Origin: Acidobacteriota bacterium
Lineage (GTDB): Bacteria > Acidobacteriota > Terriglobia > Terriglobales > Acidobacteriaceae
Direction: 5' to 3'
Length of the DNA stretch: 50,803 bases
Assembly (NCBI GenBank): GCA_021799405.1
Contig: JAJZAL010000012.1
Location: 1-50,803 of the forward strand
Part shown: positions 9,867-49,838 of the stretch, one piece after another
How positions within the stretch are numbered: position 1 is the stretch's first letter
How the letters are laid out: each line of letters opens with the position of its first letter
The notes under the pieces: generated by a model
What the model saw: only the letters and a program-made list of their open reading frames with translations
What the model was told of the DNA's origin: nothing
Database searches by the model: none
Program-made: the position numbers and the translations under genes

Positions 9867-12139
9867 GATTTCTCTCCCACTGATGTCGTTTTCTGGCTGA
9901 GTATTGCGCCGCCAGCGTCCAGCAGCACGACCATTGCCGCCGATCCTTCATGCTTGTCATCCGCGACAACAAGATTCACTTCACCGCCACTACCAACTTC
10001 CTTGACGCCTACCACGATGCTCGATCCAGCTTGTTTCCAGTTCGTACGGAGATCCACTCGCACGGTGGGATCGTTCGACTCGACCTTTACCTTGCACCGC
10101 ATCCCTCGCCAGTCAATCGAAATGATCGATGCGGAAACGGCTTTCACTCCTTGAGTCACGACTATCTCTGGGACAACACACTCCTGGAGGCTCACACCAC
10201 CATGAGAATACTTTTCGCCGGCTCGGAAACTGGCAATGCCAGGCGGTGAGGCGATTCGTATGTCGTGGTTCCAATGCCACGGATACGACGGCACTTCAGC
10301 ATGACCCTTGACGAGAGCGCACCGAGACCACTTTGTCTCAGCCAGAAAGGCTGGCAATGCTACTTTGGGCAGATTTTCAGGCATCAGCAACCATCCGTGA
10401 TCCGTGACCACTCTGACCTGTTTCCATCCCGCATCCAGGAACTGCAACACCCGGTCAGCGGCATTCATCACCTCAGTTTTCACTCTGGCAGGCAGATCAT
10501 CTGGGTGAGCGTGTCCGTAGGCATCAATCTGGCCGAACTCTGCCCATCCGCCATGTTCGGCCCCACTTGGGAAGAGAGTTTCTCCCTGTGCCAAAACCTC
10601 CACGCCTTCTTTGGCAATGGCATCTCGCAAGACTGGCGCTGTCGCCGGCTTTATTCCCAAGAACGGTGCGAAATCGTCCCCTGTCTCGCCATGAAGCGTT
10701 CCCCTGATTTTCATGATCGCCGGCTTTGCGGTGGCAGTGACCGTGGGCAGCGTGGAAAGTCTAAATCCCACCTTCGTAATAACGCCGCGTTGCTCCAGCT
10801 CTGCCGCCAAGGCCGCACCAACGTCAAATCGGAGCCCATCGACAAATAAAACGCATACATCTCGCTCGCCCACAATCGGCGGAGAACCTAACTTGCCAGC
10901 CTTTTGAACCAATTCCTGAAAGTGACGGGTCGATGCATCGAGCCACGGCTCATAGAGTGCCCGGACAGCACGCTTCATGATCTCGGCGTCGGATGTCGTT
11001 TCACGGAATCGCGACAATGCATCGAGCGCGGCCTGATCGCATCGATAGCCATCCGCCGAATAGGCCGCAGCCGCAGCATCAATGGTTGCGCCTCCAATGG
11101 GAAACTTGCTCAGTTTGGCAAGCGCGACTAACGGTTCCAGTGCCAAGGCCCATGGGCTTTGATCCGACCGAGCCCAAACCCAGGAACGTCTTTCTTTGTG
11201 CTGAGTCTCAAGCGCCATCACCTTTGCCGCGACTGTAGACTGATCGAGTCCAGCCACTCCTTCTAGTGCTTTCCTCAACTCGGCTTCAAACGTCTCGTTA
11301 ATGGCTGGATTCCGAGACGCATCGATTGCGAGGCTCGCCGGCGAACGAAGGAGCTTTGTCACACCCGGATATGAGGTTGGCGATTCGCAGAACCGGAACC
11401 ATACCGGGTCCAGGGGCACATGTCCCTCGGCAAGAGCTTTGATTGCGGCGTCTGGACCATCGGCGGGATCAATCTGAAATTCGTACTGACAGCGGTTCCT
11501 AAATGAGACCCATCTCGCCGCTTGTGTCTGTTCGAAGCGCTCCGGAGCATTCAGCCATTGCAGGAGGTCACGTAGCGGATCGGCAACGGAAAGGCGGTCA
11601 AAATCGTCCGCATCCAATCGCTTCCCTGAGAATGTCTTCACATCCGCATCGGCTAGAAGCGTTAACGCGCGCCCTATCGCTTCTTCAGTACGACGGTCCT
11701 GCGTTACCTCTAGGCCCAGCCCCTCAACTGACACCAGGAATGCCATCACCGTCCAATCACGACCGTTCGACTGATGCCATACGCGACCGCGATATTGCAA
11801 CTCAATCAATGGAGCCAACTGCGGTGGACACTCGGCAGCGGCCCGGAGAGTTTGGCGACTGACATTCGGCAAATAGATGATCGGCGTCTTGTCTGCCGGC
11901 GGAGCTTCTGGAAGAGTTCTGTCCACAATGCACTTCAACCAGATGGCTGGGCCAACGCGATCCTCTGGATGATACTCACCATATGTGAAGAACTCTGGCA
12001 TCACCGAACGGATAAGGGGAGCTAAGGATGACCACTCTCCGGTAGCATCAGTCCACACAATCGCCACAGGCGAAACTTGCCCTTCCGGAACACGGAGACA
12101 CTTTGCAAAGGAGTCTCTCAACCTTTCGAGCAGTTTCAT
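9863..12139 (-). CDS. pglZ: PglZ, alkaline-phosphatase-superfamily protein of BREX
   Basis: The 758-aa protein carries the PglZ core: VCVLFVDGLRFDVGAAL with DGLRFD at residues 434-439 and the metal-binding-like VVTDHGWLLMPENLP further on. PglZ is a hallmark of BREX and related systems and belongs to the alkaline phosphatase superfamily; it acts with PglX and BrxC. Its ATG overlaps the stop of pglX by four bases and its own stop overlaps brxL by four, so the three are translationally coupled. Length and architecture are normal for type I BREX, with no sign of damage. Confidence 0.93.
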   Translation of the reverse strand: MKLLERLRDSFAKCLRVPEGQVSPVAIVWTDATGEWSSLAPLIRSVMPEFFTYGEYHPEDRVGPAIWLKCIVDRTLPEAPPADKTPIIYLPNVSRQTLRAAAECPPQLAPLIELQYRGRVWHQSNGRDWTVMAFLVSVEGLGLEVTQDRRTEEAIGRALTLLADADVKTFSGKRLDADDFDRLSVADPLRDLLQWLNAPERFEQTQAARWVSFRNRCQYEFQIDPADGPDAAIKALAEGHVPLDPVWFRFCESPTSYPGVTKLLRSPASLAIDASRNPAINETFEAELRKALEGVAGLDQSTVAAKVMALETQHKERRSWVWARSDQSPWALALEPLVALAKLSKFPIGGATIDAAAAAYSADGYRCDQAALDALSRFRETTSDAEIMKRAVRALYEPWLDASTRHFQELVQKAGKLGSPPIVGERDVCVLFVDGLRFDVGAALAAELEQRGVITKVGFRLSTLPTVTATAKPAIMKIRGTLHGETGDDFAPFLGIKPATAPVLRDAIAKEGVEVLAQGETLFPSGAEHGGWAEFGQIDAYGHAHPDDLPARVKTEVMNAADRVLQFLDAGWKQVRVVTDHGWLLMPENLPKVALPAFLAETKWSRCALVKGHAEVPSYPWHWNHDIRIASPPGIASFRAGEKYSHGGVSLQECVVPEIVVTQGVKAVSASIISIDWRGMRCKVKVESNDPTVRVDLRTNWKQAGSSIVVGVKEVGSGGEVNLVVADDKHEGSAAMVVLLDAGGAILSQKTTSVGEKS

Positions 12140-15100
12140 AGGAGTCCTCGGGCACGACGCTTGTCGTCAAGCGACAAATGATTGTCGTTGGTTCGGTCCG
12201 ATGATTCTGCAAACCACGGAAATTCGCCGGGATCGCGATCTGGCTCTTTGCCGCCATCCTTTCTGTAATGGATGTTTGGATTCACGCGCAAAATCCCGGA
12301 TTTAGTGGCTCTATAGAGCTTAGCCTCTGAAATCCACGGGCGAATGTTGATTCGAACCCCGTCATTGAGGTCAGGGTCCCAACCGATGGGTTGCGCTTTG
12401 ATTGATTTCCACCGCGCGAAGATATCGTAAGGGATTGCTCCTTCGAGAATCTTCCTTAGCTCGCCCTGAAGATGCTCAGCGGCGGCCAGTCGCCTGTCAG
12501 CACCTTCAACTCCCTTCGTAACATCCAATCGTTGACGTGTCAGCCAATCTCCGAGATAAGAATAGATAAGCTTTTCTAAGGTACGGCGATCGAGCTTGTG
12601 ATAATTCACGAGAGCATGAAAGCCTTCCTTCAGACCGTCCCAAATATGCCAGACTATCGGCCGGTCGTGAAACAGCTGGCAATGCTCCTCGAAGAACTCG
12701 TCTCGTAGCCACGCTTCGAAGTTCGCCGATTTATTTCTAGCGAGCAACTCTGCCGCGTTGTATTGCGCACCAAATGCGGCTTGCAAGAGGCACCTCAACC
12801 TGTTATCGGCACCTTCTTGTCCTGCCACGGGAGCCAGGCAGACAATGCCATCAATAGCGACGAATTCATTGAGGCCGTCTGGACCAAGCGGCGGACAGTC
12901 TGGAAAACTCGATCCTGTTTGTCTTGGCCATTCATAGCCGACCAAACGTGCTACTGCAACTTGGAGAGGGTAGTCAGACTCCTTCGGAAATCCATCAAAG
13001 ATCCATTGTCTTGGATTCGGCGAAAACGGCTTAGCTAATAACCCGCCCGCCCCTTTCATCTGTCGCCAGTGATCAACATCAAATGGCACATTTACGAGGG
13101 TCGCAGTCGTGACCGACAGTTTGTTATCGATATGCTTAATGCACTTCGAAAATTCGTCAGACGCGCAGAATTGCCAGAGGGCTTCAAGGTGATCCGGATC
13201 ATTCGGGACGATTACTGTCACCGCAGAATCGAAACGGTCCCCGAGATAGCCAGACGCTCTTAGACGGCCGGTTGCGCTGATTGCGACACCACGATGGCCC
13301 CAGGCAGCCTGACCACGCCGCCAGTTCTGGACGACATGATTCATGCCCTTCATTCTTTCTGCCAACTTTGCAAGCTCGCCCTTTCCTTGTTCCCAAAAAA
13401 TCACACTTGTAAGCCCTTCAAATTGGCCATCATTCTCGGCTGCATTCTGAAGAACCTCCCAATCAGCGTCAAGAGATGGAAGCTCCCAAAAACATCGGTT
13501 ATATCGCTCGCTGTCGCCGGACTTCAAGCCTGATACGCTAAATGCGAATTTACCTAGGAGAGGAACAGACGACGCGAAAGGAGGTCTAACCAAACAGTCT
13601 CGATTCTCAAACATTGAAGCTTGACTTAGCCGCTGCGGAGTCTGCGCGCGAAGAAGTTCTGCCTTATCATCCGCTCCTTTTGCAGAAGTGACGTCAATCC
13701 ATGAGAAGTCATTACTGTTTCCCGGAGAACCAGCTGTGGCAATGAATGCGCCTGGATCGACAACTTCGCCGGTTATTGTTCGAAATGCTCCCGGCCCAAA
13801 AATTGCGACAAACCCCAGGCGAGATTCGCGAAGCATGCGCCTGCGATAATGCTTATATCTAGACGCATAGGTCCACTTCTGAGGAGCTATCAGAGCTACA
13901 GAAGAGCCAGCGTTGAGAAGCCGGAGACAACGATCGAAGAACACCTGGGCTAAGTCGTCGGCAGCGTCCTTATAATATGTATTCGAAAACCGGTGAAGCT
14001 CCTCTGATTGCCTTCCACGCCCGAGATAAGGAACATTTGTCACTACCAAAGAAAAGCGGCTCCCTAAGATTTTGGCGCTCTCCAGTAACCCCTTCGCCGC
14101 AATAACGAGTTCATGCGTTTCAGCAATTCTTTCCTCAGCTTCCAATGCCTTATTGATGAGAGGAATTAACTTTGCGATCTCAGCCTGTACCATCGGTTGC
14201 CCTGGCTGCAAGGGATCGATGAGGCTGCCTAATGTCGGTGCACTTAGGAAAAGCGAATACAGCGACCGCATGAGAGCCTGGTTCCGCTTGTCTTCTCCGA
14301 CCAGTTTTACCCAATCTTCTTCCTTCGCGCTTATCGTAAGCCCGGAACAGGCGAGGTTAAGGGGCGGGAGGTCAAAATGATGACCTGCAAGCTTCCAAGC
14401 AGTCAGTGCAAGGTTGAATGCCGCGATCTGACTGCATCGGAGGTCAAGTTCAACTCCAAAGAGATTGTCACGCAAAACCGCTGTAATGGCATCTGAGAGT
14501 TCTAATCCTTCCTCCGCCTGCCTCATTCGGACAAGGATTGGAAGAGCAAACGTTAGGAAGTGACCGCTCCCCATGCAGGGGTCCAGCACTCTAAGCTCTC
14601 TCGATGTATTCGGCCAACCTTTGTACAATCCTGCTGCTGGAGTGCCGTCCTCACTAAACCGTAGATAGGTCCATTTGTAACCAGAAAGATCAGGTGCGCC
14701 TCGCCGCGCTGTCCACCAAGCGCCCAAGGAGTTCTCCAGCAAAAATAAGACCATATAGTCTTCGGTGAATAACTGAGTGACGGGGGATAGTTCATCCGCC
14801 CCAATCTTCACTTCTGACCGATTGACCTCGTCCTTCACGTCCTTCTGCCAGAATTGATAAACCCAGCCGAGGCTGTCATCGGCAAGAAATATCTCTTTAG
14901 GAAGCGAGTTGAGCTTGGCTTCGAGGTCCCGGCGCTTCTCAGGCGGAAGCGGAACGCGCAATGCTGGATCGTCTGAGCGAAAAACTTCCCGAAGCAACAT
15001 TCGTTGAGCGTATTCGGCGGCAAGTTCAATCCAGTCGCAGCCTTTCCCAAGAGCAACCTCTTTGACCTCACCCAGCGTCAACGCCACACGATGTTCCGGG

Positions 15101-15423
15101 TGCATCAGCAGATCGTTTTCGGCAAGGAAACGAGCAAATAGCAACCGGTGCCAGTGCTCGTATGCTACTGCCTGTTTAAGATGGTTGATAGTCTGCGTTC
15201 CCCGCTGCACATCGCGCTTGTCACCCAATTGACGACCGTGGGCGCGTAGTTGATTCCTGAACGCCTTCTCGTCGGGAGACAAAGAGCTGTGAGGCTCCTG
15301 TCGATCGACGGCGAGGCGCCGCAAAGACTGTTCTGCTCCGTCCTCAGCAATTTGACGGGCGCCGTCCTTGCCCGCAATAGCCTTTTCGAGGAGGCGACGA
15401 AGTTCTTTTGAGAGACTTGGCAT
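12136..15423 (-). CDS. pglX: PglX, BREX N6-adenine DNA methyltransferase
   Basis: The 1095-aa protein is the site-specific methyltransferase that marks host DNA in BREX and is needed for exclusion. The SAM-binding motif is VLDPCMGSGHF (around residues 279-289). The catalytic motif is NVPY (463-466), a variant of the usual NPPY. A long target-recognition and C-terminal region follows. It lies two bases downstream of brxC and overlaps pglZ by four bases. N6-adenine methylation of a non-palindromic hexamer is the general expectation for PglX; the motif for this protein cannot be read from sequence alone. Confidence 0.94.
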   Translation of the reverse strand: MPSLSKELRRLLEKAIAGKDGARQIAEDGAEQSLRRLAVDRQEPHSSLSPDEKAFRNQLRAHGRQLGDKRDVQRGTQTINHLKQAVAYEHWHRLLFARFLAENDLLMHPEHRVALTLGEVKEVALGKGCDWIELAAEYAQRMLLREVFRSDDPALRVPLPPEKRRDLEAKLNSLPKEIFLADDSLGWVYQFWQKDVKDEVNRSEVKIGADELSPVTQLFTEDYMVLFLLENSLGAWWTARRGAPDLSGYKWTYLRFSEDGTPAAGLYKGWPNTSRELRVLDPCMGSGHFLTFALPILVRMRQAEEGLELSDAITAVLRDNLFGVELDLRCSQIAAFNLALTAWKLAGHHFDLPPLNLACSGLTISAKEEDWVKLVGEDKRNQALMRSLYSLFLSAPTLGSLIDPLQPGQPMVQAEIAKLIPLINKALEAEERIAETHELVIAAKGLLESAKILGSRFSLVVTNVPYLGRGRQSEELHRFSNTYYKDAADDLAQVFFDRCLRLLNAGSSVALIAPQKWTYASRYKHYRRRMLRESRLGFVAIFGPGAFRTITGEVVDPGAFIATAGSPGNSNDFSWIDVTSAKGADDKAELLRAQTPQRLSQASMFENRDCLVRPPFASSVPLLGKFAFSVSGLKSGDSERYNRCFWELPSLDADWEVLQNAAENDGQFEGLTSVIFWEQGKGELAKLAERMKGMNHVVQNWRRGQAAWGHRGVAISATGRLRASGYLGDRFDSAVTVIVPNDPDHLEALWQFCASDEFSKCIKHIDNKLSVTTATLVNVPFDVDHWRQMKGAGGLLAKPFSPNPRQWIFDGFPKESDYPLQVAVARLVGYEWPRQTGSSFPDCPPLGPDGLNEFVAIDGIVCLAPVAGQEGADNRLRCLLQAAFGAQYNAAELLARNKSANFEAWLRDEFFEEHCQLFHDRPIVWHIWDGLKEGFHALVNYHKLDRRTLEKLIYSYLGDWLTRQRLDVTKGVEGADRRLAAAEHLQGELRKILEGAIPYDIFARWKSIKAQPIGWDPDLNDGVRINIRPWISEAKLYRATKSGILRVNPNIHYRKDGGKEPDRDPGEFPWFAESSDRTNDNHLSLDDKRRARGLL

Positions 15424-15425
15424 AG

Positions 15426-18400
15426 TTATTGAACCTGAACAGGACCTTTCTCAACTGCTTCAAGTAGCGCTTTCTGCTGCCGCTCTGCCCACTGCCGCAC
15501 TTCATCGGGAGTTTTGAGTAGCGATTTTTCGACGCTGACACCCTTAACTTTGGGCTCCAGCAAACTTGCGGCTGCATTGAGTGCATGCGCCACACGGCCG
15601 GACACCGCATCGGCTTCGGCCTTCCGCATAGCAAGATTGCGCGAGTCGAGTGCGGCAAGAATCGTTGCATCGCTTGCAGTATCAGGCTTCATTGGAGCCT
15701 GAATTCCAACGTCGCCGAGGATCTTCTCTTGCTGCGGTGGGGTTAGCTTTTGCCAGGTTGGGTTCGTAACTAGCTGCTGCATGCCTTCTTCATGCGCAGT
15801 CTCGTGCGCCGAGTGAGCTTCGTTCAACGATTGCCGCAATGAGTCGGTAAGCGTAGACTTCAAGGCCGGTATAGGGTCAGTGGCATCCACAAGCAGACGT
15901 TGTGTCCGGATTGCCTCTACGTGTTCGCGAGTCGCTTGCGCCGTTGCGAGAGCTGCAGCATGCGCGGCCAGCCCTTCCACCGTCTTCCATGCCGGCTGAC
16001 GCTGGGCAATTAGTGCCTTCGTTTTCTTCCACTCGATAATACGCACCGTGATGGAGTCGGCATTGTCGCGGATAGCAGCAAGCCTGTCATTCCCGACTTG
16101 ATTCTGAATGTCTTCCAAATCTGTCACTGAGGGCACCGCTGGTAACGGCGCATTACCGCCGGCCTGGCTGGCCAGCGCAATTGCGGCCCGGAGGAAGTCG
16201 GCAGCCCTTTCGTTTTCCTCTCCGGAGGTGCACTTCACGTCAAGCGATTGGAATAGCTTGCGCAACTTGAGTCGATCCTCGACGGAGATGTTCGTTTTCT
16301 CAAGGCGGAATTCTGCTTTCGGGATTCGGTTCTGATCCAGTTGCCCACGTTCCACCGGTGTGCCATTTAGCGTTGCAATAAGCTGTTGGCAACTATGAAG
16401 CGCAATTAACGCGGCATCCACCGCATCCCGAGGCCAGCCAAATGGCGCAGCTTCGAGTTCCTTGCGAATTTGTGTACCTGTCTTTCCGGAGCCAATCGTC
16501 TGGCGCACTTGCTGGCAGACGGGATGCTGTTCAATCGGACCTTCATACTTCAACGGCTGAAATGGCTGCTCATGGGAAGCACGGGCTCGTTTGATACAGC
16601 TTTCCCAAGCCGACGCGGGGGCATCCGCTTTGCTGAACTGCGGGAAAAGCCTTATCAGGGAGTCCTCGCCTGCTGATTTCAGTTTTACGTCGAGAGCAAG
16701 CCCAAAGACTTCGCTACCTCCGCCGCGGAAGACCTTGGCCGCGCCAACAATGTCGGTGATGAGGTTGTTGCGCGCGGTCTCAGCAAGTTTCTTCCGGCTC
16801 TCCATGGCACTCTTTGCCAGTTCGCCCTCCTGAGTGGCCGGCGCACCTTTCGCCTGGATGGTCTGATTGGCGGCCTCATTGGTTGCGATGGCGCTTAGCA
16901 GGTCTTCGCGTGATTTCTTCGGAATGAACACAAAGATAGTCGGCGAGTCCATGCCTGCGGCAATAGCCGCGTCAGTCATCGCCTTCTCTGTCGAGGAAAA
17001 GCCATCGCGAATCCAAACCGGAATGGAGTCGCCGCCTACTTGCGGCGGGTCCTGGCCTCGATACGTCACTAGGGCTCGGCTGACTTTTGCCTGCCCCTGA
17101 ATCAGCTTGATCCCTTTCAATGCGTGATCTATCTCAGCCGCCAACAGCTGATCGCGCTGTTCATCGAAGTCTGCGGCATTGTTCTTGAATTTAGTCTCAC
17201 GCTTGCGAAACTCATCGTCCCAAGCGCGGCCTTCTTCAGTCTGGATGCGGTATTCACTGCCAACCCGCATGAGAGCACCATCGTCGGCCAGGGAATCAAG
17301 TTGCGAGGCAACTTCAGACCGCAACTTCCCGTTGTCGGCAGTCAGATCCTCGACGAGTAGATCAGCAATATGTTCGGCAGTCGCCCGAACGCCAATATCG
17401 ACACCCGACTCCGTTTTGAGTTGTCCGATTAGAAACGTAAGGCCGCAGATGCGCTGTGCCAAAGGGTTCGGGAGAGAACCGATTCGATCATAGATTCCGC
17501 GTGGCAGGACGCCGGTGCCGATGAGTTTTGACGCAAGGATGGAATAGAGTTGATCGGCGGGAATGACCGTACCCAAGGGAAAGTCAGCTAGCTTCTCCAG
17601 TGATTCATGGATGATTCCGAGCTGAGAGCGCAATTGACTCTGGGTTCCGACTGCGTCAACCTGCCGGAAGCATTCCTCCCAAAAGCGACGGCGCACTGGC
17701 AATAGCGGGTAGTCGTCAATGATCGTGTTCTGATCGGAAGTGCGCTGTCCGATTTTTGTGCCTTGCAGGTGCCGAGATACTTCGCCGGCGTGGTGGCTCA
17801 ATAGCTTCTCTACTTCAGATCGTGCGGTGGGCTTTTTCTGAAGCAGCACTTCCCGAGTAACTACTTCCACATCTGTGTCGGAAAGCTGAACGCGGATAAG
17901 AAAGCGATCCAGCATCTTGGCGAGTAGCTCTTGACCGGTCAGCGCCGATTGGCCAGCGGCCACAAGCATCACTTGGCTATCGAGTTGCTTCGAGAGAACC
18001 TCTGCAATTTCGGTGATGGTGACGGATCGGTCGACAGACGTACCGATATATTGCTGAACCTCGTCGAGGATGAAAATTGTGCACGGCAGTTTTCCCCCTT
18101 TGCCGGCACGCTTGAGTACACGCTGAAACGTAGAAAGAAATTCCGCCGATGTAAGGTCAGCAGTTCGAAGGGGAAACTGCTTTCGAAGAGTCTCTCCGAC
18201 TTGCGCCTTACTGGACGCCAGATTTGGGTCACACTGCAAAAGTGCTTCGCGAATGATAGGGCTTACATACAGGTCGCTCAGTTCCTTTTCCCAAGACTTT
18301 CCGGCGGCCTCGACTGCGCCCTTGACGGTATCAAGAAATCCTTGATCTTCAAGCCAAAGCTGAAAATGCGCCAGCTGATACTGATCAGGGAGGTTTACTG

Positions 18401-18875
18401 CGCGAAACAGGATTGCCAACACTGATTGGCGGACAAGATCAGATGTACCGGAAGGCAGCGTCCCGGCGGCGGCTATGAGACCGCCTGACTTGCGCCCAGC
18501 AATATCGAGTTCAAGAAGAGCACTGCGCACATCCTGGGGCAGGTCTGGGACCAGACTCCTCGCGGTTGCTCCGTCGGGGAAAGCGGTGTCTTGCCACAGA
18601 TGGCAAAGCATCTTTAGAAGATGCGATTTGCCGCTTCCATAGAAGCCGCTCACCCATGCGGCCTTTTGGCTGGCCTGGGACTGGCCGCGAAGGAATGAGT
18701 CGAGTATTCGCGACATACCGTCGCCATACTGACCCTTGCAAACGAAGCTTTCTAGTTCGCCTCGTAACTGTGCCAACATCTTTTCATCAGCAGCCTCGTT
18801 TTGAATGCGAGCCTGCCCGTTGTTGGCTAGCGGATTTTTCGATGGATCACGGAGAAGAATGTCTTTCAGTAGCAT
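15426..18875 (-). CDS. brxC: BrxC, large BREX P-loop ATPase
   Basis: The 1149-aa protein has Walker A GFYGSGKS at residues 77-84 and a Walker B-like stretch CTIFILDEVQQYIG. It is of the length and layout expected for BrxC/PglY (DUF499/DUF6079-like ATPase), an essential core BREX subunit thought to act with PglX and PglZ. The start codon shares one base with the stop of brxB, indicating translational coupling. The C-terminal half is rich in predicted helices with Ala/Gln/Glu runs, as expected for coiled segments. No truncation or frameshift is seen. Confidence 0.93.
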   Translation of the reverse strand: MLLKDILLRDPSKNPLANNGQARIQNEAADEKMLAQLRGELESFVCKGQYGDGMSRILDSFLRGQSQASQKAAWVSGFYGSGKSHLLKMLCHLWQDTAFPDGATARSLVPDLPQDVRSALLELDIAGRKSGGLIAAAGTLPSGTSDLVRQSVLAILFRAVNLPDQYQLAHFQLWLEDQGFLDTVKGAVEAAGKSWEKELSDLYVSPIIREALLQCDPNLASSKAQVGETLRKQFPLRTADLTSAEFLSTFQRVLKRAGKGGKLPCTIFILDEVQQYIGTSVDRSVTITEIAEVLSKQLDSQVMLVAAGQSALTGQELLAKMLDRFLIRVQLSDTDVEVVTREVLLQKKPTARSEVEKLLSHHAGEVSRHLQGTKIGQRTSDQNTIIDDYPLLPVRRRFWEECFRQVDAVGTQSQLRSQLGIIHESLEKLADFPLGTVIPADQLYSILASKLIGTGVLPRGIYDRIGSLPNPLAQRICGLTFLIGQLKTESGVDIGVRATAEHIADLLVEDLTADNGKLRSEVASQLDSLADDGALMRVGSEYRIQTEEGRAWDDEFRKRETKFKNNAADFDEQRDQLLAAEIDHALKGIKLIQGQAKVSRALVTYRGQDPPQVGGDSIPVWIRDGFSSTEKAMTDAAIAAGMDSPTIFVFIPKKSREDLLSAIATNEAANQTIQAKGAPATQEGELAKSAMESRKKLAETARNNLITDIVGAAKVFRGGGSEVFGLALDVKLKSAGEDSLIRLFPQFSKADAPASAWESCIKRARASHEQPFQPLKYEGPIEQHPVCQQVRQTIGSGKTGTQIRKELEAAPFGWPRDAVDAALIALHSCQQLIATLNGTPVERGQLDQNRIPKAEFRLEKTNISVEDRLKLRKLFQSLDVKCTSGEENERAADFLRAAIALASQAGGNAPLPAVPSVTDLEDIQNQVGNDRLAAIRDNADSITVRIIEWKKTKALIAQRQPAWKTVEGLAAHAAALATAQATREHVEAIRTQRLLVDATDPIPALKSTLTDSLRQSLNEAHSAHETAHEEGMQQLVTNPTWQKLTPPQQEKILGDVGIQAPMKPDTASDATILAALDSRNLAMRKAEADAVSGRVAHALNAAASLLEPKVKGVSVEKSLLKTPDEVRQWAERQQKALLEAVEKGPVQVQ

Positions 18876-19435
18876 TACGCAAGCCCCACGCTATCTAATG
18901 TGATTGGCGCTGCAAGATAGTTCCAGCCGTCCCGTGCATCGAGGAGACGGTAGTTGTTTTGCTCGTATTGACCTGGGAAAAAGATTACGAGACGGCCCCG
19001 GATCGAAGGCTCGACCAGTTTGAGAACCTGCGAAATCCGCGTAAATCCAAATAGACCACCGACCCCAAATACCGAAACGACGGAACTCTCGGTCACGTCG
19101 GTACGAGTTAAAACGGCTCTAATTTTGTTCGCGACGAAGCTGGTGAATTCCGACTCTAGTTTGAGTTGAAGGTCGTCTGGAGACTCAAAGTATGCATCCC
19201 GGTATTCGGATGCCGCAATCCATTCAGCGAAGGCAGGGGCGACATCCACTTGAAACCAGTCGTGATTAGCCTGCTTGGTAACAATCTCAAATTCATCTTT
19301 GTGCGCCAGAATATCTCGTTCGAGTTCTTTGTCGTAAACGACAATGATCACTCGTTGCGAATCGGCGATCGTTCTCTGCCAGGCGGTGGTTATGTGCTGG
19401 CCATACGACTTTGCAAGTTGTTGGATTCGACTCAT
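18875..19435 (-). CDS. brxB: BrxB, DUF1788 protein of BREX
   Basis: The 186-aa protein matches the DUF1788 family that defines BrxB. Conserved features include a central VVSVFGVGGLFGFTRISQVL and the following RGRLVIFFPGQYEQNNYRLLDARDGWNYLAAPI segment. BrxB is a required small component of type I BREX whose biochemical role is unknown. It overlaps brxA by four bases upstream and brxC by one base downstream, so it sits inside a tightly coupled operon. Confidence 0.92.
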   Translation of the reverse strand: MSRIQQLAKSYGQHITTAWQRTIADSQRVIIVVYDKELERDILAHKDEFEIVTKQANHDWFQVDVAPAFAEWIAASEYRDAYFESPDDLQLKLESEFTSFVANKIRAVLTRTDVTESSVVSVFGVGGLFGFTRISQVLKLVEPSIRGRLVIFFPGQYEQNNYRLLDARDGWNYLAAPITLDSVGLA

Positions 19436-20214
19436 CGTGTGCTCCCTACTGAACGAGGATCGAGACGATTCAAACTAAGGTCAAATACATCACCAGCGAC
19501 TCGCAGATCTAATAGTCCAAGCCGCTTCGCCTCGACGGCAAGATTCAAAGCTTGAGAGGGGCTGCAATCGAGCGTCTTGATCCAGCCAGACGCGAGGAGT
19601 TCCTCCCCATGGAAACCTGAACCCACCCCGAGATAAAGAGCGAATGCGACTGCTCTGGGTGTCGGCTGTATTTTTCGGCGAATTTTGAAGGTCCGGCCAC
19701 TCAGATGGCCGGATTGACTCCAAGAACTCGCCGTATTCCGAATTACCTTGTCCAGAGTGGCATCGCTCAACCGGTCTCCAACCTTTTCCCGAAGCCCCTC
19801 CGTCATTGACTTGCGAGGCATCTCGAGCCCCTCAGCCAACGGGACGATGGCTTGCGCAGTTGCCATCAAGAGCGGATCGCGAGCAAGAGCAGCTAGGATT
19901 GCGAGCTGCGGTCGTGAGACCCGGTCGGCATCCCAAAGTAGACGAAGGATTCGGAAGATCGGAATCTCAGGATCAAGAGCGTATAGTTCGCTCAGCCTTT
20001 GAAGGGAGAGACGACGCGTAGAGATGGTCGGTTTGCGAAGGCAATTCGCGTCGATTACAGCAGACACGTACTCTTTTCGCGAGCCGTTAGGGGGCACCGC
20101 ATACATAACTGATGCAAGCTCTGCAAGCATCATCGTTCTGCTCGAATGAGTACCCTTGCTGCCGAATCGGAAGCCAACAGCCGTGTTGTTTTGTCCGCCA
20201 AAGGAAAGAACCAT
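19432..20214 (-). CDS. brxA: BrxA, DUF1819 protein of BREX
   Basis: The 260-aa protein is the first gene of the BREX operon. I chose ATG 20214 (MVLSFGGQNNTAVGFRFG) because GAGG lies five bases upstream and a promoter lies about 55 bases upstream. The open frame extends to 20388, but that extension would cross the promoter and both palindromes. The body has DUF1819-like helical segments (IFRILRLLWDADRVSRPQLAILAALARDPLL, TLDKVIRNTASSWSQSGHLSGR). BrxA is known as a small DNA-binding component of type I BREX. This protein is somewhat longer than the roughly 200 aa usual for BrxA because of its N-terminus. Confidence 0.88.
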   Translation of the reverse strand: MVLSFGGQNNTAVGFRFGSKGTHSSRTMMLAELASVMYAVPPNGSRKEYVSAVIDANCLRKPTISTRRLSLQRLSELYALDPEIPIFRILRLLWDADRVSRPQLAILAALARDPLLMATAQAIVPLAEGLEMPRKSMTEGLREKVGDRLSDATLDKVIRNTASSWSQSGHLSGRTFKIRRKIQPTPRAVAFALYLGVGSGFHGEELLASGWIKTLDCSPSQALNLAVEAKRLGLLDLRVAGDVFDLSLNRLDPRSVGSTR

Positions 20215-20222
20215 AAAACCTC

Positions 20223-20240
20223 GCCGGCAAACTTGCCGGC
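20223..20240. promoter_or_regulatory. Palindromic operator candidate in the BREX leader
   Basis: GCCGGCAAACTTGCCGGC has perfect 8-base arms around a 2-base centre. It lies nine bases upstream of the brxA ATG, just before the ribosome binding site, and downstream of the predicted promoter. The same 18-mer occurs in inverted orientation at 20312-20329. A protein bound here could block transcription or translation of the BREX operon. No regulator gene is next to brxA apart from the ParB-like gene. Confidence 0.65.
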
Positions 20241-20266
20241 TGGATAGAATGAAAAGCTTGTGTCTG

Positions 20267-20295
20267 TTTGTACCCCCGACCTTTTCAGCTGTCAA
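20267..20295 (-). promoter_or_regulatory. Predicted promoter of the BREX operon
   Basis: On the minus strand there is a perfect -35 box TTGACA (20290-20295), a 17-base spacer and a -10 box TACAAA (20267-20272), which matches the consensus at four of six bases. Transcription would begin near 20260, giving a leader of about 45 bases before brxA. The promoter lies exactly between the two identical palindromes. The boxes are seen directly; activity is inferred. Confidence 0.65.
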
Positions 20296-20311
20296 GGATA
20301 AAATATTATTG

Positions 20312-20329
20312 GCCGGCAAGTTTGCCGGC
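20312..20329. promoter_or_regulatory. Second palindromic operator candidate, upstream of the BREX promoter
   Basis: GCCGGCAAGTTTGCCGGC is the exact reverse complement of the palindrome at 20223-20240. It lies about 17 bases upstream of the -35 box. The centres of the two sites are 89 bases apart, a spacing compatible with DNA looping across the promoter. Confidence 0.65.
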
Positions 20330-20511
20330 GGTACATGAATATTTCGCTTTAGGAAATGTACGGCAGGCCAGACCGGGCCGGAGTACATTGGCTGGTCCAG
20401 ATTCGAACCCTCATTGGATCAATGGTGTGCGTCTGCCCGTCGGGTGGGCGAAACAGGGCGCTCTCGACGAATGCGAGAGCAACTTTGGGGTGGGAAGACG
20501 GGCCGGTACGC
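20330..20511. other. Non-coding gap between the BREX control region and the parB terminator
   Basis: No gene is supported here. A short stretch around 20402-20420 (ccagattcgaacc) resembles the T-loop of a tRNA, but its flanks do not pair, so no tRNA can be called. Confidence 0.5.
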
Positions 20512-23582: not shown

Positions 23583-24632
23583 ATGGCCCAATTCACGGTA
23601 GGCGGCATCCAGTTCGATCTAAGCCGCGAAGATGTAGAAAAGAAGCTCCAGTCAGTAGTTCCGGAGCCTGTTCGGGAACTCTTTGTCGAGGTTAACGAGA
23701 GTCGTTTTCCCATTAAGCAGGCCCTCGCCGAAGCAGCCGGGCTGCAGCGCGGCATGTTTACGTCTCACGACGCCATGCGCGTATTTCGGAAATTGAGCAT
23801 TCCGATAGGGCCGGACGAAGCGACGGCGGTTGAACGGTTTTTCACAGTTGTGAAGAGCCTGAACGAGTTTGACAAGATGGAGGTGCAGGGGGTCGTGGCC
23901 GGCCAGTTGGCGAAGTCGGATCACGAAAACCGTGTGTACGGGCTGTACCTGCGGGCCAGGGCCAACGTCCAGAGCCTTCTCGCGCTCAAGCAGGCGATGG
24001 ACTTCCAGGCCATCGTCATGCTGGCCCGCAATCTCTTCGAGCTTTCCGTGGACGTCAAGCTACTCGACGTAGTGCCGGACGCAGTGGACAAGTTCTCGGT
24101 GTTCTCGGAAGTCGAGAAGCTACGGGCTGCCGAAAAGATTGTGGCGTTCAAAGCAAAGCATCCCGCGTCCAAGGTAGATACGACGATTGTGGCGGGGTTC
24201 ATTGCCAATAACAAAGCCTCCATCGACGCGCGGCGCATTGCGCTGTGGCCGGAGACCAAACCGACGAAACAGCACCCGAAGGGAAAGCCGCTTACCCACT
24301 GGTCCGGGATGAACCTGAAAGAGCGGACGGCCAAGTTAGGACATCCCTTCGATGAACTCTACGAAGTGAAGTACCCGCAGATGAGCTGGTACACCCATTC
24401 TGCCGGTTCGACGGGATTCGATCTCAAGCGCGAGACGTATCCGCTTTTGGCGGGAGTGTACTTCGAGCTTGCGGCGATGTGTTACATGGTCTTATTGACC
24501 AGTGTGATCGAGGAGTTCAAACTGACGGCCGCGGACGAACGGATCAAGAGCAAAATGCGCTACGCGCAGATGATGCCCTTCACCGACACCGATGAACAGT
24601 TGCAGGCGTTGGAACGGGGTCTGCTGGGTTAG
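23583..24632 (+). CDS. DUF5677-like protein of unknown function, first gene of an unnamed cluster
   Basis: The 349-aa protein starts at ATG 23583 (MAQFTVGGIQFDL); an in-frame start 15 bases upstream is less likely. The middle and C-terminal parts are helical. They include RARANVQSLLALKQAMDFQAIVMLARNLFELSVDVKLLDVV and a histidine-containing MSWYTHSAGSTGFDLKRETYPLLAGVYFELAA, which resemble DUF5677 proteins seen in genomic islands. No catalytic motif is obvious. The first 110 residues look like a separate helical module. The gene is followed after 45 bases by three closely packed genes on the same strand. The family call is tentative. Confidence 0.7.
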   Translation: MAQFTVGGIQFDLSREDVEKKLQSVVPEPVRELFVEVNESRFPIKQALAEAAGLQRGMFTSHDAMRVFRKLSIPIGPDEATAVERFFTVVKSLNEFDKMEVQGVVAGQLAKSDHENRVYGLYLRARANVQSLLALKQAMDFQAIVMLARNLFELSVDVKLLDVVPDAVDKFSVFSEVEKLRAAEKIVAFKAKHPASKVDTTIVAGFIANNKASIDARRIALWPETKPTKQHPKGKPLTHWSGMNLKERTAKLGHPFDELYEVKYPQMSWYTHSAGSTGFDLKRETYPLLAGVYFELAAMCYMVLLTSVIEEFKLTAADERIKSKMRYAQMMPFTDTDEQLQALERGLLG

Positions 24633-24677
24633 CAGGTTGGATCGTATCCACCTAAATTTCAAATTTGGTTGCAAGCT

Positions 24678-25463
24678 ATGAACGAAGTAAAAAGAGCGGA
24701 AGCGGAGCGACTTGCCGAACTCACTTGGAAGGCAAAGCGAGAGAGGATCGTTCGTGACTTCGGCGAAGAGCGCAATCGAGTCATCAACCGCGTAACTCAT
24801 AACGGCAACGCCGGAGGATACCTGCCAGCGTTGATCGCATGGGCAGTCGAGCGGCTTAAGGTGAACATTTCGGCCCAGGCGGACGCCTATATCGAAGCGT
24901 TCGATGCCTTCCATCTTCCCTGCGATGAAGCGGCGGAGAAGAAGCTGTGGCAAACCGCCAGCGAGTTTGCCGCAGGCTCCATCATGAATGTGCGCAACGA
25001 CCGCTCGGTGAAACGGCACCGGCTGGGGCTTGGATCGCCTTGGCACTTGGAGATTGAGCGGGAGATGCACACCTCAGCGAAAGAAGCCATCGCGCGGCTG
25101 AGACATCAGCGTGCGGCGGCCCAGAACCGTCCCAAGGAGGTCGTAGTGAACCAGACATTCAATGCCACAGGCCCAAACGCGCGGAACAATGTGAATAGCA
25201 CCGACAACTCCATGAACGTCGTTCATCAGGGTGTTCCCTTCGCGGAGTTGCGGAACGCTATTGAATCGGGGATCGAGGATGGAACACGGCGCGCGGCCAT
25301 TCTGGAAACGCTCGCTCACCTCGAAGCGGCGCCGGATCGAGAGTCCGCCTCGACACGCTACCAGCAGTTCATCGCTGCGGCGGCGGATTACGTGACGCTC
25401 ATCGGGCCGTTTTTGCCGGCCTTGGGCCACTGGGTTCACAATCTGGCGGCGGCGGTGAGGTGA
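24678..25463 (+). CDS. Unknown protein with Asn-rich GPNARNN motif
   Basis: This 261-aa protein is of no named family that I recognise. Residues 1-155 are mainly helical and charged. A short Asn-rich segment, VVVNQTFNATGPNARNNVNS followed by TDNSMNVVHQG, has GPNARNN starting near residue 165. A C-terminal helical domain follows (FAELRNAIESGIEDGTRRAAILETL, then YQQFIAAAADYVTLIGPFLPALGHWV). The Asn-rich segment recurs in the next protein. Such short repeats between domains suggest a beta-strand or amyloid-like interaction module, which is inference. The stop overlaps the next start by four bases (GTGA), so the two are probably made in fixed ratio. Confidence 0.72.
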   Translation: MNEVKRAEAERLAELTWKAKRERIVRDFGEERNRVINRVTHNGNAGGYLPALIAWAVERLKVNISAQADAYIEAFDAFHLPCDEAAEKKLWQTASEFAAGSIMNVRNDRSVKRHRLGLGSPWHLEIEREMHTSAKEAIARLRHQRAAAQNRPKEVVVNQTFNATGPNARNNVNSTDNSMNVVHQGVPFAELRNAIESGIEDGTRRAAILETLAHLEAAPDRESASTRYQQFIAAAADYVTLIGPFLPALGHWVHNLAAAVR

Positions 25464-26578
25464 GCACGATGACCTCAACACCGGGCCAAAAACTGCTCAG
25501 TGCGCTTCGGCGGCTCGCCGGCGATGCGCCGCTGACCCATCGTTTCAAACCGGCGGAATGGGTCACGGTGACAAAGGAGCTGGGCTTCACGGACGCACAG
25601 AAGAATGAGGCGGTCACGTCTCTTCGCACGGCGGGTTTTATCCGGTTTACGCCGGAATCGACGCAGATCATCGCGTTCACGGCGGAGGGGGTTGCCAAAG
25701 GAGACGAATTGCTCCCGCAGCAGCAGAATCGAGAGGTGGGAGGACCGATGCCGGATACTTTGGAAGCTATCCGCGCCGATTTAGATTATTGGGAAGTACG
25801 ATTGCATGAAGGCGATCCGGGCTCTATCTGGTGGGAACAAGTACAAGCTCGAATCTCTGGTCTAAGGCATCGGGAGAATCGGTTTACCACGCCGGTTTCG
25901 ATCACGAACAACGCCATTGGGCCGAACGCGCGTAACAACTTCAACAGCGTCGATCATTCCATCAACCAGACTTCGCAGGACCGCGTGGGAGGACCGGATG
26001 CGCCACGACGCCTGGGCGTACCGAGGTCGAGAACGGCGCGTCTTGAATGCAGTTTGCAGTGGCGCTACCTGTCCTACTACTCCCCGCGTGGAGCCTGGAT
26101 AGAGGACGAATTTAGCCCGACTCGATCGCAGTCGCTCCTCGTTTGCGTCAAGAATCCCATCGCTGCTCTTGGAGAGCGCGGCATGGTGACACCGCCGTTG
26201 GTCGCTCATCTGGCATTGAAGACGGCCACACGCGGCGTAGAAATAGACCGTGCGTACTGGCTGGGCCGGGATACAAATGAGATCGCGCTGCATCCTGGTA
26301 AAAGCGGAGGTATTGTTGTCGGCGGCTACGATAACGGCGGTTGGGTGGTATATGCCAACCCGTATTCATTATCGCCGTTTCAGGGAATCATCCCGGAAGT
26401 TATTGCGCCGCTCGGCGAAAAGCACGTTCTCTCCAGTGGGGCTCCTATCGCCTTAACGGTCTCGCTTTTGAACAATGAGAGTTTAGAGACGCTGGCGCAA
26501 TGGCAGTTCGTGATTCATTTTGGATCGGGGGGACTGCGCGTAGAGAAGATTGAGCCTCGTCCATCCGAGGCGGTTTAG
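25460..26578 (+). CDS. Unknown protein with N-terminal wHTH-like region and GPNARNN motif
   Basis: The 372-aa protein starts at GTG 25460, coupled to the upstream stop; an ATG at 25469 is possible. Residues 1-75 look like a winged helix (EWVTVTKELGFTDAQKNEAVTSLRTAGFIRFT). The Asn-rich linker VSITNNAIGPNARNNFNS, then VDHSINQTSQ, has the motif starting at residue 154 and matches that of the preceding protein. The C-terminal 200 residues are rich in predicted strands (SLLVCVKNP, GGIVVGGYDNGGWVVYANP, WQFVIHFGSGGLRVEKIEP), suggesting a beta-sandwich. No enzyme motif is visible. Only five bases separate it from the downstream nuclease gene. Confidence 0.72.
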   Translation: MSTMTSTPGQKLLSALRRLAGDAPLTHRFKPAEWVTVTKELGFTDAQKNEAVTSLRTAGFIRFTPESTQIIAFTAEGVAKGDELLPQQQNREVGGPMPDTLEAIRADLDYWEVRLHEGDPGSIWWEQVQARISGLRHRENRFTTPVSITNNAIGPNARNNFNSVDHSINQTSQDRVGGPDAPRRLGVPRSRTARLECSLQWRYLSYYSPRGAWIEDEFSPTRSQSLLVCVKNPIAALGERGMVTPPLVAHLALKTATRGVEIDRAYWLGRDTNEIALHPGKSGGIVVGGYDNGGWVVYANPYSLSPFQGIIPEVIAPLGEKHVLSSGAPIALTVSLLNNESLETLAQWQFVIHFGSGGLRVEKIEPRPSEAV

Positions 26579-26583
26579 AAAAT

Positions 26584-27453
26584 ATGAAAATGACTCGGCT
26601 GGATACGACGAGCTTTTTTAGCGACCTGGCTGAACTGGATAGTTGGCTTGCCAGCAAAGGCTTCGCAAAGCGGGACAGGCTGCGCGTGTACAAGGCCAAC
26701 CTTGAGGCGATGGCCGAGCGGGAAAAAACGAGCGATGCAGCTCAGGTCTATTCCGAGGTGGAAAAGGCCGGGAAGACTACCGAAATTCTAACCTCCTATG
26801 TGGAAGGCATTGAGTTTGTCGATGCGTTGAAGTGCCTGCGTGAAAAGCAAGTTGAGATCCCGGCGGCTTTGTTGAAGAAAGCCTTGGCTGGTCCATCGGA
26901 TGCCGTTCATGAGAATCACAATTCCAATCAGGGGCGGAACGCCATGTTCGAGTTGCTGATGGCGTCCATGGTTGCGAGGCAGGACTTGTTCCCGATACTC
27001 GGTCAAGTGAATCCAGATGTGGAGTTCCAATTTCAATGTCGCCGGGTTCTGATGGAATGCAAACGAGTTCTGTCGGTGAACAAAGTAATCGCGAATATTA
27101 CGCAGGCCGTCAAGCAGCTTGAGAAATGTGTGGACACGAACAAAGCGGATGTCGGCGTGGTCGCCATCAGTATCTCTCGTTTAGCACATCAAGGTGACGG
27201 CTTCTGGACGGTGCCATCGTCGGACACTCCGCACGCTTTCTTAGCAGAGGGAGTTCGGAAGGTCATTCAGGAGCTTGATCCACAACTGCGTCGGTTGGAT
27301 GTACCGGCGGTCGCGGGCATTTTGTTTTATGTGGGCGGCCCGTTCTATGTCCAAGGAGTTGGATACACGACAGCCAACGAAGGGATGTTATATCCAACGA
27401 GTCTTGGAGAGACTGACTTTCTGCGGACGCTGGCTGCAACATTACGGTTGTGA
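26584..27453 (+). CDS. Predicted PD-(D/E)xK-type nuclease
   Basis: The 289-aa protein has a helical first half. It then has a plausible restriction-endonuclease-like core: E123 in MFELLMASMV, D145 in NPDVEFQFQC, and E158-C-K160 in VLMECKRVLS. The Q-x6-K pattern in NITQAVKQLEKCVDTNKADVGVVAIS fits the helix and strand after the catalytic ExK. This arrangement suggests a nuclease effector, but the family is not recognised with confidence. It is the last gene of the rightward cluster and its 3' end overlaps by 12 bases the 3' end of the convergent protease gene. Confidence 0.65.
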   Translation: MKMTRLDTTSFFSDLAELDSWLASKGFAKRDRLRVYKANLEAMAEREKTSDAAQVYSEVEKAGKTTEILTSYVEGIEFVDALKCLREKQVEIPAALLKKALAGPSDAVHENHNSNQGRNAMFELLMASMVARQDLFPILGQVNPDVEFQFQCRRVLMECKRVLSVNKVIANITQAVKQLEKCVDTNKADVGVVAISISRLAHQGDGFWTVPSSDTPHAFLAEGVRKVIQELDPQLRRLDVPAVAGILFYVGGPFYVQGVGYTTANEGMLYPTSLGETDFLRTLAATLRL

Positions 27454-28233
27454 ATCTGGAATTGTGCGACGGATATCCTCAAGCGGGATGTTATCCACCG
27501 TTGAGATTTTCAGGATGTTGTACGTTTGGCTGTGCTCGATAACGACGCCGACAAGCGGGTAATCGAGTTGGAGCATGAGGGCGGCGGGACCGCCGCTTAA
27601 TCCCCCAACTTCCGCATCCGATGGCGGAAGAGGGCCGCCGTCAAAACTAATGAGCTCTTCTTGTTCGATCTGACAATAGAAGTACCCTTCGCCGACGCTC
27701 GTGATGCGAAATAAAGCGGAATACGGGCCCGCACTTATGTCGCTGCTGCCGACTTCCCGCAAGGTGCGGGGATACCCGGCGATGAGCACCACCTGTCTTT
27801 CAGTGGGAGTTGGCGGCGGCCATCCTCTAACGGCAGAAAAGACCAGAGAGGTTTCGTTGCAGGCGCTGTTAACTTCGGACTCCGATATTTCCAGAAAGAC
27901 GATATCGCGTTTGGCGTTCCTCCATGCAACGCGAGGCAAAGGGTCGAATGGCGGAAGGCGACCAAACTGCCAATTAATCCGTTCCGCCTTGATTCGTCTT
28001 TCATACTCGTCCAGCACATGATTTGCCGTAATGATGAACGGTCCGGAGTCGAGACGCACAATGCATCCCGTAGCGCCATTTACCTTGCCGCCAATCGAAA
28101 GCGGAGGGGCGAGGCAAAGAGGGATCGCATAACGCTGCGCCAGTTGGACCAATGTGCGGGACACGGCCCTGTATTTTTCCTGATCCGATTCGGGAAGTGC
28201 TCGGAATTCCGACGATCCCTGAGGTTTGTTCAT
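27442..28233 (-). CDS. Trypsin-like serine protease
   Basis: The 263-aa protein carries a chymotrypsin-fold catalytic triad: H72 in FIITANHVLD, D110 in KRDIVFLEI and S213 in GGLSGGPAAL. VNGATGCIVRLDSGPF precedes the His as expected for the first beta-barrel. There is no signal peptide and no PDZ domain, so it probably acts in the cytoplasm. Cytoplasmic trypsin-like proteases occur as effectors or activators in bacterial conflict systems. The gene is convergent with the putative nuclease gene, and the overlap of coding ends suggests long co-residence. Whether it belongs to the same system is inferred. Confidence 0.85.
   Translation of the reverse strand: MNKPQGSSEFRALPESDQEKYRAVSRTLVQLAQRYAIPLCLAPPLSIGGKVNGATGCIVRLDSGPFIITANHVLDEYERRIKAERINWQFGRLPPFDPLPRVAWRNAKRDIVFLEISESEVNSACNETSLVFSAVRGWPPPTPTERQVVLIAGYPRTLREVGSSDISAGPYSALFRITSVGEGYFYCQIEQEELISFDGGPLPPSDAEVGGLSGGPAALMLQLDYPLVGVVIEHSQTYNILKISTVDNIPLEDIRRTIPDSQP

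Positions 28234-49353: not shown

Positions 49354-49838
<485 letters not shown>

Follow-up and report, generated by a model that had tools for sequence, protein, structure and literature searches.

Do closely packed genes in a defence-rich stretch of bacterial DNA encode one system, or does a smaller part of the cluster form a unit of its own? This question is raised by a five-gene locus (A to E, positions 23583-28233) in a contig of an Acidobacteriota bacterium (JAJZAL010000012.1, assembly GCA_021799405.1), whose 50,803 nucleotides are referred to below as the window. A preliminary description, made from the sequence alone, had proposed that the five genes constitute a sensor-adaptor-effector system. 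Our analysis points to two of them, B and C, whose products have a short asparagine-rich motif in common. With roughly even confidence we regard B and C as a motif-linked two-gene module that works free of NLR proteins, in which the motif would serve as an assembly tag between the partners and which would act in virus defence, probably by abortive infection.

A motif common to two adjacent genes

The two genes and their parts are as follows.

24678-25463, forward strand: B, 261 amino acids; N-terminal helical domain (residues 1-150), motif and constant helical C-terminal domain (188-260), as delimited in an AlphaFold2 model
25170-25217, forward strand: motif copy of B, residues 165-180
25239-25457, forward strand: constant C-terminal domain of B, residues 188-260, four helices
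25460-26578, forward strand: C, 372 amino acids; constant N-terminus resembling a winged helix-turn-helix (wHTH) and a helical-looking stretch (both by eye), motif and variable C-terminal domain
25919-25966, forward strand: motif copy of C, residues 154-169
25967-26575, forward strand: variable C-terminal domain of C, a beta-sandwich by eye

The start codon of C is GTG, and an ATG is present at 25469. The motif follows the pattern G-x-N-x-R-x-N-x-x-S-x-D-x-S-x-N and reads GPNARNNVNSTDNSMN in B and GPNARNNFNSVDHSIN in C. The sole significant BLASTP stretch between the two proteins (residues 111-184 of B and 113-173 of C, E 1e-7, 38% identity) ends just past it. Among the open reading frames (ORFs) of the window with at least 60 amino acids, B and C are the only ones with the strict motif, i.e. 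with all eight fixed residues, and five rounds of residue shuffling of the ORFs of the window and of 22 loci from other genomes (L001-L022, described below) gave no match. A protein search with B, in which the best 8000 candidates were scored, yielded 57 relatives, and a search with C yielded 30; the strict motif is kept in 55 and 29 of them, respectively. The three relatives without it are P0033, which has another tail, P0037, which ends before the motif, and P0077, which has a gap at the motif. All eight positions are invariant in two alignments of B relatives (A1, 23 chosen rows, and A5, 49 chosen rows, P0033 and P0037 not being among them), and G154, N156, R158, N160, S163, D165, S167 and N169 are invariant in an alignment of C relatives (A2, 19 chosen rows). 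A further alignment of motif plus tail (A4, 15 rows) spans Acidobacteria, Alpha- and Gammaproteobacteria, Gemmatimonadetes, Bacillota and others; since its 14 rows from the loci were selected by the strict motif, invariance of the motif is there by construction and only the similarity of the tails is informative. Neither B nor C matches any Pfam, NCBIfam or PADLOC family up to E 1. That the two proteins share a motif had been noticed in the preliminary description, and the same pattern in both, the single BLASTP stretch around it and its recurrence elsewhere bear this out; the motif pair exists, recurs in other genomes and is of greater interest than that description had suggested.

In the AlphaFold2 model of B (mean predicted local distance difference test score, pLDDT, 84.8) the motif joins the two helical domains, and its region is modelled with pLDDT below 50 in the monomer (residues 154-165 and 167-184). 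A segment that is invariant and yet unfolded between folded domains suggests a site that would become ordered upon binding. Comparison of folds gave no convincing structural match for B, the best rows being mostly designed helical proteins, and searches of PDB sequences with the alignments A2 and A4, with an alignment of the nuclease D (A3) and with the protease E revealed no credible relatives. The C-terminal domain is the most hydrophobic part of B, and in all 20 B-type proteins with the standard tail that were compared, the most hydrophobic window of 19 residues lies in the tail and not in the head; in two proteins with divergent tails (L016 and L022) it lies elsewhere.

The domains on the two sides of the motif behave in opposite ways in the two families. 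We split each protein at the motif and clustered the halves by BLAST, using 56 B-type proteins with the motif (that of the window included) and 30 C-type proteins. B-type proteins combine seven N-terminal types with a single tail type (55 of 56 tails; the odd one, P0023, has an apparent frameshift), and in 66 pairs of them tail identity reaches 80% or more, yet BLAST at E 0.01 finds no match between the N-termini. C-type proteins have a single N-terminal type (29 of 30, the odd one being P0087) with six C-terminal types. Because matches must share something with the query, one constant part is expected in each family; the informative point of this comparison of sequences is which part stays constant, and it is the opposite one in B and in C. 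The conserved core of the operon would therefore begin at the motif of B and end at that of C, with the changes outside it. The N-terminal type of B and the C-terminal type of C appear to assort separately: at L002 the second N-terminal type is paired with a different C-type (by eye), and in P0044/P0060, if these are on one contig, as their equal contig sizes suggest, it occurs with the C-type of the window.

Two observations concern the exchanged parts of C. P0087 (223 amino acids, metagenome) has, ahead of the C-type motif, an N-terminus that by eye resembles a restriction endonuclease and has no Pfam match. A relative of the variable C-terminal domain (L047:4405-5547, reverse strand, E 2.8e-6) is preceded by a hydrophobic segment and by another G/N-rich motif, GGNVTGSQFQAGRDI; it looks as though several motifs of this kind could replace one another.

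Motif genes and partners in other genomes

A genome scan with the alignment of B gave 22 loci, one of which (L018) has the tail without the motif. At 7 of the 22 a second motif gene lies next door, with the strict motif at L001, L002, L006 and L019 and with one departure from it at L007, L020 and L021; because L019-L021 are alike, this amounts to about five independent pairs. When the products of neighbouring genes were compared by BLAST, eight pairs had a single significant stretch, which in each case contained the motif. The partners are of several kinds: C-type proteins (L001, L002), a protein with a strongly hydrophobic segment (L006, hydropathy 2.68), a pentapeptide-repeat protein (L007) and AbiTii proteins, recognised directly at L021 and through follow-up profile searches at L019 and L020. 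The adjacency of B and C with its 4-base overlap is repeated in the two further genomes of L001 and L002, so that coupled B-C genes are seen in three operons, that of the window included; in three metagenome cases, whose longest contigs are equal in size (5820, 13641 and 5889), B and C probably share a contig. Of the gene co-occurrence that the preliminary description had offered as a check of its proposal, the association of B with C is thus conserved in other genomes and that of all five genes is not.

Some neighbourhoods of the motif contain genes of defence type. At L012 an AbiTii domain, the motif and the tail are united in a single protein, and in the 26 genomes with motif genes, which were chosen for the motif, 6 of 8 AbiTii places carry or adjoin it. 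Other neighbours of defence type are SMODS with SLATT_4 (L003), patatin (L011) and Mrr_cat (L013), and a protein kinase is found at L016; these genes were hand-picked, with no enrichment test behind the associations. A conserved gene of about 125-143 amino acids just downstream of the motif gene in L003, L008, L009 and L033 looks Trypco2-like by eye; as the profile gave E 0.058 for L009 and nothing for L003, L008 and L033, we do not claim this identity.

We infer that the motif acts as an assembly tag in both proteins. The outer domain of one partner would sense infection, upon which the motifs of B and C would come together, most likely by addition to a shared beta-sheet stack, each unit of which could be a beta-arch of two strands that turns its N, R, S and D side chains inward. 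Assembly would cluster the constant parts, which in B are the helical and rather hydrophobic tail and in C the wHTH-like end, and would lead to growth arrest or death of the infected cell, the executioner being either the tail of B or the variable domain of C.

A number of points weigh against such a module. Formation of a sheet and binding of like to like are proposals, and no member is known from the searches made to have been tested against phage. At 15 of the 22 loci the flanking DNA contains no second motif gene (some loci are truncated, and distant partners were not sought), so that pairing is not obligatory. Of 15 AbiTii matches in a sample of 398 Pseudomonadota genomes, only 2 carry or adjoin the motif, and many neighbours of motif genes are housekeeping-like by eye (e.g. 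L002, L015). C-type genes are rare: among 396 genomes of the phylum of G002 they occur in one, the central genome itself. The 22 loci were fetched partly via the motif pattern, by which the locus rows of A4 were likewise selected, and a search with B can only retrieve proteins that have something in common with it, which favours the picture of one constant part. The reverse case, the same N-terminus with another tail, is rare but real (P0033, and P0023 after its apparent frameshift). Finally, a hydropathy of 1.6 over 19 residues is reached by only 3 of 55 B-type tails from the database, and for this reason a membrane role of the tail is a guess. P0033 itself (255 amino acids, metagenome) has a B-type N-terminal domain on another tail with a precomputed PF04796 match and has no motif.

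The motif could instead be a structural linker or an oligomerisation stalk, e.g. a short trimeric beta-helix, spread by domain shuffling and carrying no signal between B and C. We judge this unlikely, though deserving serious consideration: the motif does join two domains in the model of B, it is internal in 14 proteins of the loci, being followed by a further 73-81 residues, and 15 of the 22 loci have no motif partner in the flanking DNA. A linker does not account for the same motif in two adjacent genes at 7 of 22 loci, nor for partners in which the motif stands 3-5 residues from the C-terminus (L007, L019, L020 and L021, the motif of L021 being recognised by eye), where nothing is left to link.

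B and C might also be a module of a mobile element with a role other than defence, such as regulation, control of the partner or maintenance of the element, in which the wHTH-like end of C would be a DNA-binding regulator. The window lies on what the preliminary description called an integrative and conjugative element, the N-terminus of C looks wHTH-like by eye, and genes related to the motif are present on plasmids and viral contigs. The plasmid search for B gave four weak matches; of the two whose regions were inspected, one (L045) is an AbiTii protein without the strict motif, and no plasmid match was found for C or D; B has no match in phage records and five in viral contigs, which contain no match for C or D. 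On one viral contig a motif protein (L036:7689-8297) with a second type of hydrophobic tail directly precedes terminase-like genes (by eye). The AbiTii, SMODS/SLATT, patatin and Mrr associations argue for defence instead, as does domain exchange on both proteins, which we take as typical of conflict genes, and we consider a non-defence role improbable.

The motif-linked B-C module thus remains our preferred reading. Its generalisation would be a widespread class of NLR-independent immune signalling, in which at least two proteins with exchangeable outer domains are wired by a new amyloid-like motif of about 25 residues in several phyla, including a subset of AbiTii, pentapeptide-repeat, transmembrane and wHTH partners; this we put forward tentatively, as a possibility that is rather doubtful. 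The profile of motif plus tail finds 7 of 398 Pseudomonadota genomes, including G003, a central genome chosen via the motif, and G544, which has the tail only. On L049 an AbiTii protein with a variant of the motif is encoded two genes away from a NACHT NTPase-like protein of 1450 amino acids (by eye; L049:1194-5546 and 6760-7671, reverse strand).

Neighbouring genes and the five-gene proposal

The other three genes of the cluster are the following.

23583-24632, forward strand: A, DUF5677 protein of 349 amino acids (Pfam PF18928, E 1.3e-9, residues 118-274)
26584-27453, forward strand: D, predicted PD-(D/E/Q)xK nuclease of 289 amino acids
27442-28233, reverse strand: E, stand-alone trypsin-like serine protease of 263 amino acids (H72/D110/S213)

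The five ORFs, their spacing (+45 bases between A and B, -4 between B and C, +5 between C and D), the 12-base overlap of the 3' ends of D and E and the shared motif are all as the preliminary description placed them, and its assignment of A to the DUF5677 type agrees with the PF18928 match. It had also named D a PD-(D/E)xK nuclease and E a trypsin-like protease, and both assignments hold. D has D145 and E158-x-K160, and its AlphaFold2 model (predicted template modelling score 0.90) resembles restriction endonucleases in fold comparison; P144, D145 and K160 are invariant in the alignments A3 and A6, where position 158 is E or Q. The scans with Pfam, NCBIfam and PADLOC found no family above the cut-off for D. 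In E, H72, D110 and S213 follow one another as in trypsin; the protein matches Trypsin_2 slightly below the Pfam cut-off (E 3e-5, 25.2 bits against 27.6) and matches the PADLOC profile LmuA over residues 50-241 (E 1.6e-9).

The tight spacing of the genes and the nuclease-protease pairs known in immunity, of which the available part of one publication gives examples (PMC12799240), speak for the five-gene sensor-adaptor-effector system of the preliminary description, with D and E as effectors. Conservation does not: apart from a weak DUF5677 match at L014, A, D and E were not found beside motif genes in the genomes searched, and the B-C pairs of L001 and L002 have none of them nearby. Relatives of D are represented by one weak partial match in the 26 motif genomes, by none in 396 genomes and by five in 283; six loci from four genomes (three from one genome, two being distant partial matches; a seventh fetched locus, L091, a broken partial match, was excluded) contain no motif gene and no GxSGG-type protease within up to three genes on each side. 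Relatives of E occur in none of the 26 motif genomes, in a search run without a positive control, and the sole plasmid relative of E lies among genes not annotated as defence. In the D loci and the E search, nuclease and protease do not travel with the motif. In addition, the model of D has no disordered insertion of three or more residues. A match of B and a match of D on contigs of equal size (1958) were considered as a sign of linkage and judged a chance coincidence, because such a contig has no room for C. DUF5677 genes are present in 3 of the 26 motif genomes, two above the cut-off on other contigs than the motif gene and one weak and adjacent to it (L014, E 1e-4, below the cut-off); this is the one other locus in which such a gene precedes a motif gene, and BLAST shows no similarity between its protein and A. 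A, D and E are thus most likely separate neighbours of B-C, A being probably an independent or accessory neighbour and D one that could be co-transcribed with C, and we hold a system of all five genes to be quite improbable.

A trypsin-like protease gene alongside an invariant Arg in an unfolded stretch, and the Trypco2-like gene downstream of the motif gene of L009 (E 0.058, below the cut-off), might suggest that E or a similar protease cuts after this Arg and frees the tail of B, which is very improbable, since E is unlinked to motif genes elsewhere, the pocket position six residues before S213, where Asp is expected in proteases cutting like trypsin, is by sequence not Asp, and the eight invariant residues in both partners would be left unexplained.

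The preliminary description had placed the cluster next to an AbiE pair in a defence-rich setting, as is confirmed by profile scans. AbiE was found with Pfam and PADLOC, and the PADLOC scan, which took in 17 window proteins including genes on both sides of E, identified a short prokaryotic Argonaute (4978-6387, reverse strand, E 8.6e-163), an adjoining partner gene of type Aga_REase-PNTD1-PNTD2 (6699-7748, reverse strand, E 5e-98) and the BREX set BrxA, BrxB, BrxC, PglX, PglZ and BrxL as a single run (7815-20388, reverse strand). A tRNA-Asp gene near the right end of the window (49354-49430, reverse strand) is a possible attachment site for a mobile element.

Comparison with known systems

D and E recall the nuclease-protease pairs of Hachiman, AVAST and Lamassu, in which a nuclease gene likewise stands beside a trypsin-like protease gene. 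In those pairs, according to the available part of the source, the nuclease is of the metallo-beta-lactamase (MBL) type and the downstream gene encodes the protease in fusion with a defence enzyme (PMC12799240). D, in contrast, is PD-(D/E)xK-like: it has no MBL family in the Pfam scan and its model resembles restriction endonucleases, which does not formally exclude an MBL fold. E, with its protease match spanning most of its 263 residues, stands alone and converges with D, being neither fused nor arranged downstream. The SMC-type ATPase LmuB of Lamassu was not found among the 17 window proteins scanned with PADLOC.

Closer to the motif is AbiTii (PF18864), some members of which carry the motif and the same tail (L012) or a C-terminal motif beside a motif gene (L019-L021); however, neither B nor C matches PF18864 up to E 1, and 13 of 15 sampled AbiTii matches are without the motif. 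Effector-associated domains (EADs) offer a parallel in principle, as a shared module there has been proposed to join sensor and effector via homotypic contact; in the available text these are short adapter domains (PMC10907252), whereas the stretch described here has about 25 residues and is not folded in the model of the monomer, and no EAD family matched B or C in the Pfam scan.

The closest resemblance is to the bacterial amyloid signalling sequences (BASS 1-10) of NLR/Bell gene pairs. These also have a short motif common to the proteins of adjacent or overlapping genes, a helical, partly hydrophobic domain beside it and modular ends, and in some of our loci the partner motif lies at the C-terminus, where, in the accessible text of a review, amyloid signalling motifs of effectors are located (PMC7889193). 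The published amyloid signalling gene pairs, as far as the available parts of two papers go, involve NLRs (PMC7889193, PMC8086366), whereas Pfam, NCBIfam and PADLOC up to E 1 revealed no NLR/STAND domain in B or C. Moreover, the motif is central in B and C and its cross-beta assembly is a proposal. No Bell domain was identified, in a comparison made without a Bell profile; Bell effectors carry their motif at the C-terminus, and the four-helix, fairly hydrophobic tail of B lies after the motif. The motif is not described in titles or abstracts from the literature searches, and a text search for NARVN returned papers unrelated by title; it could still match a family in the primary BASS paper (Dyrka 2020). 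By resemblance, then, the B-C module may work like the amyloid-signalling pairs, its membership of BASS being unproven.

A review asks, in the part accessible, whether bacterial signalling amyloids exist outside NLR pathways (PMC7889193). If the motif self-assembles, two-gene loci of the kind described here answer that question, and do so with small operons and peptides short enough to be synthesised. The motif would also make it possible to find partner genes that lack annotation next to some AbiTii-type proteins and other defence proteins, and it supplies a hypothesis for how such proteins are wired. In other bacteria, too, the motif forms a constant junction between parts that are exchanged, and it may let partners find each other in defence against viruses.

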